DNA from: Brevibacterium sp. p3-SID960
Lineage (GTDB): Bacteria > Actinomycetota > Actinomycetes > Actinomycetales > Brevibacteriaceae
DNA: 64,000 nucleotides
Direction of reading: 5' to 3'
NCBI RefSeq assembly: GCF_025144725.1
Contig: NZ_JALXKS010000001.1
Span: 62,001 to 126,000 of the forward strand
Both the position numbers and the translations under genes were made by a program. Below the pieces are notes generated by a model that made no database searches, was not told where the DNA came from, and worked only from the letters and a program-made list of their open reading frames with translations. Within the stretch, counting starts at the first letter, position 1; each line of letters starts with the position of its first letter. Below, one piece after another: positions 735-3,130 of the stretch.

Positions 735-959
735 TCAGGCCTTCTGCACGGTGATGGTCCAGGAGGCCTCGCCGGTCCGGTCGAAGTGGGTCACCGGGTA
801 GCCGTTGTCGGCTGCCCACTGCGGGATCGACTCGGTTGCCTGGGTGCAGTCGAAGTTGATGACGAGTTCGTCACCGGCCGGCAGGCCGTTCATCGCGTCC
901 TTGGCCTCGACGAGCGGGAATGGGCAGACGAGTCCGTTGGTCTCAAGCACATGCTGCAT
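735..959 (-). CDS. TusA-like sulfur carrier (SirA/YedF/YeeD family)
   Basis: This 74-residue cytoplasmic protein carries the family signature C-P-x-P at residues 12-15 (Cys12), the cysteine that forms a persulfide in TusA-type carriers. It follows the YeeE-type transporter gene by 30 nt on the same strand, so the two form an operon. In bacteria with the YeeE-YeeD pair, the transporter brings in thiosulfate and the small TusA-like partner accepts or processes the sulfur for cysteine synthesis. The length matches the single-domain family. The start is the ATG at 959, preceded by AGGAGACC. The role in thiosulfate use is inferred from the pairing; selenium or other sulfur transfer cannot be excluded. 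Confidence 0.88.
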   Translation of the reverse strand: MQHVLETNGLVCPFPLVEAKDAMNGLPAGDELVINFDCTQATESIPQWAADNGYPVTHFDRTGEASWTITVQKA

Positions 960-989: not shown

Positions 990-2036
990 TCAGGCGCTGA
1001 CGCGGGCGGCCGGCGCCGAGGCGGTGGCTGGTTTGATTGTGAGCTTGGCTGCCAGTCCGGTGCCGAGCACCATGAAGATGAGTGAGACCCATCCCTGGTA
1101 GCTGAACTGGGCGGTCTCGACCATTGCGTTGCCGACGGTGCAGCCGCCGGCGATCGCAGCACCGACGCCCATGAGCGCACCGCCGCCGATCGACTTGACC
1201 ACGGTGGGTGCGTCGGGCACCCGCAGCCGGAACTCGCCTGAGGCCTTGGCGGCGATGAACGAGCCGGTGAGGATGCCGAGGATGAGCATGACACCCCAGT
1301 CGATGAGGTCGGCGTCACCGGTGGTGAGGTACTGCGCGAGGTTCGATGACGGGGTGGTGATGCCCAGACCGGAGTTGCGTCCGGTGGCGGCTGAGAGCGG
1401 CCAGGCGATCGTGGCGATGATGCCGATGACCGCAGCAGTGGCGAACGGGTTCCAGCGCTTCTCGGTCAGCAGGTGGGCAAGTCCGGACTTGCGCGGCGGC
1501 AGGGCGGCCAGCGGAGCCTTCGCTTTGCGCTGGTGGTGGACGACGACTGCTGCGGCGACGGCTGCGAGCACAACGGCGAACACCCATGGGGAGAGGCCGA
1601 AGGTCGCCGGCAGGGACCCCTGCTCGAGGGTGATGCCGCGGATCCATTCGGTGAACCCGGCGGCCGGTCCTGCCTTCATGAACGCGGAGAAGAGAGCATA
1701 GAAGATAAGGGCGAACCAGCTTCCGATGAGTCCTTCGCCGGAGCGGTAGTAGGTGCCGGTGGCGCAGCCGCCGGCGAGGATGATGGCGAACCCGAAGATG
1801 AAACCGCCGACGATCGAGGCCAGCCACGGGAAGGGGTCGGTCTCCAGGGTGATGATGCCCAGCGTGTTGAGCGCCATGAGGCCGACGGCGTGGACGGCGA
1901 TGAGCAGGATGAACGCGGAGAACCAGCGGGTGCTGCCGGCGATGAAGATGTCGCGGAAGGCTCCGGTGACGCAGAAGCGGCCACGCTGGAAGACGAAGCC
2001 CAGAGCGAGGCCGACGAGAAGTCCAGTGATGATCAT
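990..2036 (-). CDS. YeeE/YedE family thiosulfate-type transporter
   Basis: A 348-residue polytopic membrane protein with about nine hydrophobic segments. Three cysteines in conserved contexts, Cys22 (GRFCVTG), Cys91 (AGGCATG) and Cys299 (AGGCTVG), match the cysteines that line the thiosulfate path in characterised YeeE proteins. The two GGC motifs lie in pseudo-repeated halves, as expected for this family. It is co-transcribed with the downstream TusA-like carrier and preceded by a long leader that encodes a cysteine-rich peptide, so it probably supplies reduced sulfur for cysteine synthesis. The start ATG at 2036 follows AAAGGAC. The specific substrate (thiosulfate versus another sulfur anion) is inferred from family and context. 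Confidence 0.87.
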   Translation of the reverse strand: MIITGLLVGLALGFVFQRGRFCVTGAFRDIFIAGSTRWFSAFILLIAVHAVGLMALNTLGIITLETDPFPWLASIVGGFIFGFAIILAGGCATGTYYRSGEGLIGSWFALIFYALFSAFMKAGPAAGFTEWIRGITLEQGSLPATFGLSPWVFAVVLAAVAAAVVVHHQRKAKAPLAALPPRKSGLAHLLTEKRWNPFATAAVIGIIATIAWPLSAATGRNSGLGITTPSSNLAQYLTTGDADLIDWGVMLILGILTGSFIAAKASGEFRLRVPDAPTVVKSIGGGALMGVGAAIAGGCTVGNAMVETAQFSYQGWVSLIFMVLGTGLAAKLTIKPATASAPAARVSA

Positions 2037-2063
2037 GGAAGTCCTTTGTGCAGAGCCGAGGCG

Positions 2064-2093
2064 CCGGCTGGCCTGACATCACAGGCTGGCCGG
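2064..2093 (-). promoter_or_regulatory. Inverted repeat just upstream of the yeeE ribosome binding site
   Basis: Two 12 nt arms (2064-2075 and 2082-2093) pair except for a central TG mismatch, giving a stable hairpin in the yeeE leader RNA about 18 nt before the Shine-Dalgarno sequence. Its position between the leader peptide and yeeE makes it a candidate attenuator or translation-control element. There is no U-tract, so a classical terminator is less likely. Confidence 0.4.
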
Positions 2094-2271
2094 ATGTATC
2101 CGGGCGGCGGTTCGGCAGTGGTGAGAGACGATTCGCGTCGCAGGCACCGGATGGCGCCGCAGACAGCGCGCATCAGGGGTGCGACAGACAGCCGCAGGCG
2201 GCACAGGTAGCAGGGTTTCCTGCCCGGTCAGGGCACAAGGATGCCCGTCATGCCGGGGCGGCGTGGAGATA

Positions 2272-2346
2272 TCAGGAGCAACAACCGCAGGTGCACACGT
2301 ACATCAGATCGATGACGCGGCGGGAGAACAGGTGCAGGCGGAACAT
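2272..2346 (-). CDS. Cysteine-rich leader peptide of the sulfur operon
   Basis: A 24-residue open frame starts at the ATG ending at 2346 and stops with TGA at 2272-2274. It has a good ribosome binding site (AAGGGAG, 8 nt before the ATG). The peptide begins MFRLHLFSRRVIDL and ends VCTCGCCS, with Cys at 18, 20, 22 and 23 directly before the stop. This layout (Arg-Arg, hydrophobic-Asp-Leu, then a terminal Cys cluster) is that of the polycysteine leader peptides seen ahead of sulfur genes in mycobacteria and other actinobacteria, where slow translation under cysteine shortage controls the downstream operon. It lies 235 nt upstream of the YeeE-type gene on the same strand. Its function here is inferred from these features. 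Confidence 0.72.
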   Translation of the reverse strand: MFRLHLFSRRVIDLMYVCTCGCCS

Positions 2347-2697
2347 CGCGCTGGCTCTCCCTTCTTCCGAGAAAAGTGCGGCCGTTCGCCGCACGCTGTG
2401 GTGCAGGTGATCCGCACCGTCTGCAAAGATCCGCTCGCTGCGGACGATGATGACCATAGCAGAACCGATCGCCGAAGTGTCATGACTGTGTCACATATGA
2501 CATCTGCACACCGGCAACCGCACCGGCGCACAGTTGAGCAGCCCCGGCTGCGACGCGGGCGGGATCGGGGTCGGCCGCTGTTGTATCCACATCAGTTGGA
2601 CCGATCGGCAGCTGCTGCAGTCGCGCTGAAAACCCTGGACATGGCTCGAGCATGAGGCCGACTCACGCGATCCAGACGCGTTCGGCGTCGGCTTCGA
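2347..2697. promoter_or_regulatory. Control region of the leader-yeeE-tusA operon
   Basis: No credible gene is visible here. Minus-strand reading shows two adjacent palindromes: GTCATGAC at 2479-2486 and TGTCA-CATA-TGACA at 2489-2502. The wider 16-mer at 2487-2502 also agrees with the CRP/GlxR consensus TGTGA-N6-TCACA at 8 of 10 positions. A TATGGT box at about 2453-2458 could be the -10 element. The rest (about 2510-2697) is the downstream tail of the XRE gene and holds no recognisable element. Confidence 0.4.
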
Positions 2698-3042
2698 TCA
2701 GGCCACTTGGATACGCTGGTCTCCCAGCACGTACTCGATAGCCAGGCCACCGCCGATTGCTTCAAGGTAGCTGCGGATCGTTCCAACCTTTGCGTTATCA
2801 AGGTCGCCACGCTCGATCTTGGAGACCTGGCGTTGCCCTACGCCGATGCGCTCCGCGAGCTGAGCCTGTGTTAGGCCAGCTTGCTCGCGGAGCCGGTACG
2901 CACGCACCTCGGCGAGCATCCGCTCCTTGTGCGCGTCGACGCGCTCCCGGTCCACGGGATGCTCGGCGACAAAGTCCTTCAGTGAACGGACCGGATCAGC
3001 AGTAGCCGTCTCTACAGCCGTCACCGCCGCCTTTTCGAGCAT
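2698..3042 (-). CDS. XRE-family HTH protein, HigA-like antitoxin without a visible toxin
   Basis: The core is a C-terminal Cro/C1 helix-turn-helix (LTQAQLAERIGVGQRQVSKI) followed by a conserved tail about keeping a short repeat-free helix and ending near YVLGDQRIQVA, typical of actinobacterial HigA/RelB-associated antitoxins. The frame extends upstream to 3123, but that part overlaps the tRNA terminator, so I place the start at the ATG ending at 3042 (114 residues); no clear ribosome binding site supports any start. Such antitoxins usually follow a RelE/HigB toxin gene; here the tRNA-Thr gene occupies the upstream side and nothing toxin-like is found downstream, so it is an orphan or a remnant. 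It may still act as a DNA-binding regulator. Confidence 0.75.
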   Translation of the reverse strand: MLEKAAVTAVETATADPVRSLKDFVAEHPVDRERVDAHKERMLAEVRAYRLREQAGLTQAQLAERIGVGQRQVSKIERGDLDNAKVGTIRSYLEAIGGGLAIEYVLGDQRIQVA

Positions 3043-3076
3043 TAAGCCGCACGCTGCGGATCCAGCGTGAGAACGC

Positions 3077-3117
3077 AAAAACGCGCCGATGCCATCTGGT
3101 GGCATCCGCGCGTTTTC
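3077..3117 (-). terminator. Terminator of tRNA-Thr
   Basis: Outer arms AAAACGCG/CGCGTTTT (3078-3085 with 3109-3116) and inner arms GATGCCA/TGGCATC form a hairpin with a small internal loop. On the minus strand it is followed by a run of five T, immediately downstream of the tRNA. Confidence 0.8.
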
Positions 3118-3130
3118 TGACAAGCAGAGA

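Follow-up and report, generated by a model that had tools for sequence, protein, structure and literature searches.

The question raised by this locus is whether a short, cysteine-rich open reading frame (ORF) in front of a thiosulfate-transporter gene is a chance product of its spacer or a leader peptide which would place sulfur uptake under cysteine control. In the window, by which we mean the whole 64,000-nt stretch of DNA analysed, a sequence-only reading had described a 24-codon ORF with its own Shine-Dalgarno sequence (SD) 235 nt before the transporter gene. This description was exact at 2272-2346, and to it we add the strand, which had been left unstated: the ORF runs on the minus strand from 2346 to 2272 as 24 codons plus TGA, its SD ends 10 nt 5' of the ATG (SD at 2363-2357), and the 235-nt gap leads to the yeeE ATG (2036) on the same strand. 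The top NCBIfam matches of the two downstream genes were the thiosulfate transporter TsuA/YeeE and TsuB/YeeD, each below its curated cut-off. The features of the locus are listed below.

735..959, minus strand: tusA/yeeD (tsuB); PF01206 5.9e-17, NF041048 114 bits against a cut-off of 147.5.
990..2036, minus strand: yeeE/tsuA, thiosulfate transporter family; Sulf_transp PF04143 2.2e-107, NF041049 414 bits against a curated cut-off of 645.
2037..2271, minus strand: spacer of 235 nt without intrinsic terminator, C/G of 1.36 to 1.43 over the 150-300 nt adjoining yeeE (terminator scan, C/G survey).
2064..2093, minus strand: hairpin named by the sequence-only reading; found in B. luteolum only, no U tail (alignment, folding).
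2272..2346, minus strand: leader ORF MFRLHLFSRRVIDLMYVCTCGCCS, then stop; kept in B. luteolum (L031), B. gallinarum (L032) and Brevibacterium genome G010 (sequence; profiles, class-only profile excepted).
2281..2283, minus strand: Cys22 codon TGT at the family-invariant position, the likely sensor codon; TGT in 55 of 57 non-redundant leaders.
2357..2363, minus strand: leader SD AAGGGAG (sequence; kept in upstream alignment A1).
2376..2394, minus strand: 7-bp GC hairpin then TTTTCT, just upstream of the leader; similar sequence in B. luteolum, absent from B. gallinarum.
2489..2502, minus strand: palindrome TGTCA-N4-TGACA upstream of the leader, a possible operator (alignment with B. gallinarum).

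An upstream in-frame ATG would extend the leader frame to a 61-aa ORF; in a three-way alignment of the upstream regions the conserved block starts at the SD of the 24-codon ORF. This conserved SD suggests that the window ORF would be read from a leadered mRNA and not from an mRNA starting at its start codon. No sigma-70-like promoter was predicted in 1950-2700, and an Rfam search of the window returned tRNA only. The sole terminator-like site in 1950-2700 precedes the leader (2394-2376), where it might act as an additional attenuator or be an old terminator; the stretch from leader to yeeE yielded no intrinsic terminator. B. gallinarum keeps the palindrome with a 5-nt centre (GATGTCA-N5-TGACATC), a possible transcription factor site. 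As a regulon operator the TGTCA-N4/5-TGACA pattern was rejected, there being no clear genome-wide excess (three sites in G019 and four in G001, versus three and two for the reversed pattern). In the window a HipB-like HTH gene (2698-3123, minus strand) separates a tRNA gene from the yeeE leader, and in B. gallinarum a tRNA-like sequence stands close upstream, so that this gene may have been inserted or lost in one lineage. A second Cys-rich ORF at 2173-2238 (TTG start), with similar sequence in B. luteolum (L093), was dropped since the B. gallinarum spacer is unlike it.

The window YeeE is 98% identical to that of Brevibacterium luteolum and 94% identical to that of B. gallinarum. B. luteolum shares the window leader without a change. 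Between the window and B. gallinarum the block from SD to codon 19 shows a single altered leader codon and a single altered base in the SD-to-ATG gap, in the midst of flanking regions which are hard to align among the three and carry large indels. The yeeE genes of the window and B. gallinarum differ at 61 of 1044 nt and in 56 of 348 codons, and one change per 19 codons, as in the leader, was reached by 22% of 19-codon yeeE windows, so that the leader is gene-like in its conservation and not above that level. Codons 20-24 differ in four of five residues (CTCGCCS in the window, CTSSCRA in B. gallinarum). With the third tail found in Brevibacterium, CTSSC, two Cys persist in the genus, and a single terminal Cys is common to all yeeE leaders found; the polycysteine run, on which the sequence-only reading had built, is therefore not a conserved feature.

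Could a GC-rich spacer simply happen to encode a Cys-rich end? When the intergenic region was dinucleotide-shuffled, at least three Cys in the last seven residues arose in 31 of 1000 shuffles and at least four, the number in the window leader, in 2 of 1000; the class-only profile described below also misses this leader. We nevertheless hold a chance origin to be very improbable. The strongest argument against it is the conservation of the leader amid divergent flanks, to which are added the profile scores and the presence of leaders at the same place in two diverged yeeE loci.

The nearer of these two was found in a third genome of the genus Brevibacterium (G010), where a diverged leader copy, FSRRAVDFMYICTSSC, precedes yeeE. 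This leader (MAAKRNVLFSRRAVDFMYICTSSC with its stop, SD AAGGAGAG) lies 193 nt 5' of a yeeE whose product is 65% identical to that of the window; it was overlooked by regex scans and detected by profile. The other is the canonical leader MLRSRRHVDLMRVSSATCRP of Georgenia sp. EYE_87 (L069), whose stop is 129 nt 5' of yeeE; inspection by eye shows a TusA-like frame behind that gene. Over a 29-residue frame the leader reached 31.5 bits with NF042934 (cut-off 27). Eight residues (M1, L6, S8, R9, R10, D13, M15 and C22) are invariant in the four distinct yeeE leaders, which contain between one and four Cys.

Family membership was assessed with three profiles. One with eight seeds, seven leaders of other Brevibacterium operons and one of Georgenia found via NCBIfam models or motif, put the window ORF at the head of 1417 stop-to-stop segments (E 0.068) and gave E 0.0012 for the B. 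gallinarum and 0.14 for the G010 leader. A 25-seed profile holding no Brevibacterium yeeE leaders scored the window ORF at 23.4 bits, rank 1 of 1412 (next segment E 0.79), with an E of 2.3e-6 that is flattering because some seeds had been found with a profile containing the window leader and are not independent of it; the best sense-strand segment in 1000 dinucleotide shuffles of the intergenic region reached 10.1 bits. The TGA noted in some profile matches proved to be the ordinary stop of the leader. The stricter class-only profile was built from 58 distinct class-level leaders found with NF042934 outside the order. With it the window ORF was outside the best four of 1412 segments, and the eight top-scoring of 1356 upstream segments held no leader of B. 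luteolum or B. gallinarum; the profile did recover those of Georgenia (E 4.7e-9) and G010 (E 0.0099, rank 2 of 1356). By profile comparison the window leader is thus tied to the RRxHVDL...C family via G010 and the order-level leaders, not directly.

Against the named models, the window leader scored 17.5 bits (E 0.0023) with NF042936, the Ms4527A Cys-rich leader peptide, below its cut-off of 45 bits, and gave no match with NF042934 (cis_reg_atten, cut-off 27 bits) at E up to 10. It does have the family's Cys nine residues after the Asp, coded UGU (TGT at 2283-2281), and lies on the same strand a short distance 5' of a sulfur or transport gene, here yeeE at 235 nt. Judged from these comparisons, the window ORF is a real, conserved leader peptide, divergent but related to a known actinobacterial family.

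The wider result of the analysis is a rule for the codon at this position. The family's key Cys is almost always spelled by the rarer codon UGU: of 47 order-level leader segments, 46 had TGT at the Cys nine residues past the conserved Asp, one segment without the Cys (L193) having been left out. For a held-out test we took 70 leader loci outside the order (L276-L345), the 30 best and 40 picked among the matches listed with the DNA unseen. TGT was found in 62 of the 63 with a Cys at the position; five loci without the motif and two mis-framed ones (L301 and L304, TGT in both) were excluded. When the leaders were pooled, with nine loci of doubtful motif set aside, and thinned to below 85% identity, TGT stood in 55 of 57, and third-base T at the other motif codons did not exceed 21%. 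Cys codons in the genes beside the leaders were TGC 29 versus TGT 3 (10 versus 1 in the window genes). The other Cys codons of the leaders themselves were TGC 17 and TGT 1 at the order level, by hand count, and TGC 97 and TGT 38 outside the order. The leader searches were run on protein and so did not select for codons. A longer UGUYG motif was dropped, as the second base of the next codon was G in 23 of 26 order-level leaders and mixed outside the order. No pointer to the UGU rule was found in the titles and abstract openings of the searched literature. The rule may stem from slow wobble decoding when cysteine is short, or from a signal in the nucleotides themselves.

A general linkage of such leaders to yeeE in Micrococcales, for which the sequence-only reading had suggested a comparative search, was not borne out. 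Among 92 distinct upstream regions of loci with a placeable yeeE N-terminus (L072, one of 48 loci in one set, was unplaceable), a leader was present in five: the window, B. luteolum, B. gallinarum, G010 and Georgenia. Within Brevibacterium, yeeE occurs in 37 genomes, all of whose upstream regions were surveyed, and a leader precedes it in just three (G001, G010, G019), so that the leader is dispensable. PF01507 (CysH/CysD), the one sulfate-reduction family sought, is present in 36 of 57 Brevibacterium genomes overall and was not found in five of the 37 that bear yeeE. These five include all three with the leader, and none of the 32 yeeE-bearing genomes with PF01507 has one. The association of the leader with CysH absence within Brevibacterium is suggestive only, the counts being uncorrected for kinship.

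Related leaders are widespread at other genes. The yeeE-leader profile matched 34 of 396 genomes of the order at E <=0.01, and at the class level NF042934 matched 232 of 394 sampled genomes at E 1e-4 (228 above cut-off) and none of 14 control genomes. In eight of 57 Brevibacterium genomes NF042934 members above cut-off lie 5' of an SBP5-type transporter gene. For 20 order- or genus-level leader loci, Pfam was run on one downstream ORF, the longest nearby, three of them chosen by eye. Sulfur genes stood behind seven (CysD, NIR_SIR reductase, cysteine dioxygenase, rhodanese, TauE, TauD, NlpA/MetQ) and transport proteins of unknown substrate behind eight (SBP5 in four, SDF in four); the remaining five gave FMN reductase, zinc dehydrogenase, 2OG oxygenase, an NAD-binding protein and no match, one each. 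At 13 of the 20 loci the downstream gene thus has no sulfur link by Pfam, which counts against the cysteine reading. Leaders like RRIHIDLKRLTSSNC stand before an SBP5 transporter gene in Brevibacterium loci L109-L112 and L114 (Pfam checked in L109), and leaders like RRLHIDLMRVTTVIC before NlpA/MetQ-type genes in Brevibacterium loci L186, L187 and L191 (Pfam checked in L187). The 24-codon leaders of L252, L253, L255 and L256 (MYxLHLTSRRHIDL...) are window-like over their full length; the zinc-type dehydrogenase that follows in L253 has no evident sulfur link.

The explanation that we favour, and consider probable, is that the window ORF is a cis-acting, cysteine-responsive leader peptide, a ribosome-mediated attenuator of yeeE-tusA; cysteine-responsive control of thiosulfate uptake is likely on these sequence comparisons. 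Starting from what was observed, namely a conserved ORF akin to other leaders, its linkage and its UGU codon, we infer translation, cysteine sensing and an output step as follows. The mRNA would start upstream of the leader, which would be translated from its own SD. With Cys-tRNA plentiful, the ribosome would run through and depart at the leader stop codon, and yeeE-tusA expression would be curtailed in the 235-nt spacer, perhaps most likely by Rho loading on exposed C-rich RNA. With Cys-tRNA scarce, a ribosome paused at the terminal Cys codons, chiefly UGU22, would mask the spacer and yeeE-tusA would be made, with the result that thiosulfate would be imported and routed to cysteine.

For other Cys leaders there are precedents. 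Candidate Cys leader peptides upstream of cys operons are described in a passage of PMC1262725, where Seliverstov and co-workers also proposed Rho-dependent attenuation for Cys leaders without terminators, by their own description a weak prediction. An excerpt of PMC4633059 reports ribosome occupancy of a Cys-rich small ORF upstream of cysA2 in M. smegmatis, and passages of PMC13236596 and PMC13091356 cite cysteine-dependent attenuation in the same species. In our survey, C/G over the 150 nt upstream of yeeE was 1.43 to 1.83 in four of the five leader regions versus a median of 0.98 in the 87 others (one-sided p 0.006, with three of the five leader regions close kin). The G010 upstream region has no C excess (C/G 0.94 to 0.98), and for the best 60-nt C/G stretch the window ranks 40 of 92. 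The C/G excess agrees weakly with Rho-dependent attenuation. Two features sit less well with the attenuator: many family members have one terminal Cys, a thin basis for starvation sensing, and codon sensing leaves the RR..D motif unexplained. No conserved RNA structure was found by alifold on 57 leaders over three spans, a test of little power as column-shuffled controls gave zero too.

The same sensor might have another output, translation attenuation, in which the paused ribosome opens an RNA structure hiding the yeeE ribosome binding site (RBS). Passages of PMC13236596 and PMC13091356 cite reports of this model for the Cys leaders of mycobacteria; the spacer without intrinsic terminator would suit it, and the leader-to-yeeE RNA is mildly more folded than its shuffles (z -1.56, -1.81). 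We consider it rather unlikely here, since a footprint at the Cys codons raised predicted yeeE RBS accessibility by <=0.02 in four sequences (window, from 0.41 to 0.42-0.43; B. luteolum, from 0.52 to 0.46-0.50; B. gallinarum, 0.54 in both states; Georgenia, from 0.49 to 0.46), and in the window it increased only for footprints near codons 6-10 (0.58 at Arg9). Equilibrium folding, from which these values come, is a poor test of co-transcriptional folding. What the sequence-only reading had proposed as cysteine-dependent attenuation keeps its leader-like ORF, kin to a family linked to cysteine control and placed before a sulfur-uptake operon; a ribosome stalled at the Cys codons is, by these values, not predicted to open the yeeE RBS. 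The hairpin at 2064-2093, which that reading had made part of the device, does exist (5 bp, a 2x2 internal loop and 5 bp; -18.9 kcal/mol). It is missing in B. gallinarum, has no match in G010, lacks a U tail, stands 27 nt 5' of the yeeE ATG and does not take the RBS into its stem; on the alignment, the terminator scan and the accessibility predictions we rejected it as terminator or RBS lock.

A different sensor has also to be weighed: the nascent peptide, through RR..D[LF]M...C, might arrest the ribosome on another ligand (free cysteine, sulfide or a metal), the Cys codons being secondary. The eight residues invariant among yeeE leaders of varying Cys number would fit such an arrest peptide, and copper-related upstream ORFs are reported elsewhere (PMC9426467, PMC9973294). 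The constraint at the invariant position is one of codon, UGU and not merely Cys, which points to decoding, and at least seven of the 20 checked leader loci precede sulfur genes; we therefore regard peptide arrest as improbable.

Set beside known systems, the window leader resembles NF042934, a 'putative leader peptide' of Actinomycetia, in being a short ORF 5' of transport or sulfur genes with RR-x-x-D-x-M...C, equal spacing to the terminal Cys and UGU there; it differs in lacking the His of RRxHVDL, in giving no reported match, in its four Cys and in its N-terminus MFRLHL. NF042936 (Ms4527A, mycobacteria) is the best named match, over residues 6-22 with a Cys-rich end, from which the window leader departs by its score, its own SD and its yeeE-tusA target. 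By the title of Canestrari 2020, the central paper, mycobacterial Cys-rich leaders are reportedly leaderless. Unlike those polycysteine leaderless attenuators, the yeeE leaders do not conserve a run of Cys codons, and unlike an intrinsic-terminator attenuator the window has no GC hairpin and U run between leader and gene. The leader MYRLHLTSRRHIDLARVHTMTCRS of L252 (G625), with kin in L253, L255 and L256, also has 24 codons and is ungapped with 15 of 24 residues identical by eye; it has one Cys only and stands before a zinc-type dehydrogenase (Pfam run in L253 alone). The Rhodobacterales uORFC-8-2 before cysS, in a passage of PMC8632094, shares Cys codons in a uORF and a proposed ribosome-mediated attenuation, but there UGC dominates and a terminal U run is consistent with an intrinsic terminator.

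What is new here is the yeeE-tusA target, which was not found described within the literature searched; the kind of leader was already known. This agrees with the earlier remark that the YeeE linkage looked less described, as titles and abstract openings gave no link of such leaders to YeeE. Thiosulfate import thereby joins the functions likely governed by cysteine leader peptides, in lineages in which no CysH was found. The codon-level UGU rule raises the question of how a single-cysteine peptide could sense cysteine. We tentatively advance, as a possibility somewhat short of even, that across Actinomycetia the cysteine leader family senses via one obligatory UGU nine codons past the conserved Asp codon, and that Brevibacterium without CysH put this sensor on thiosulfate import. 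If true, a single slow, wobble-read codon, and not a run of Cys, would be the general sensor of cysteine attenuation in the class.
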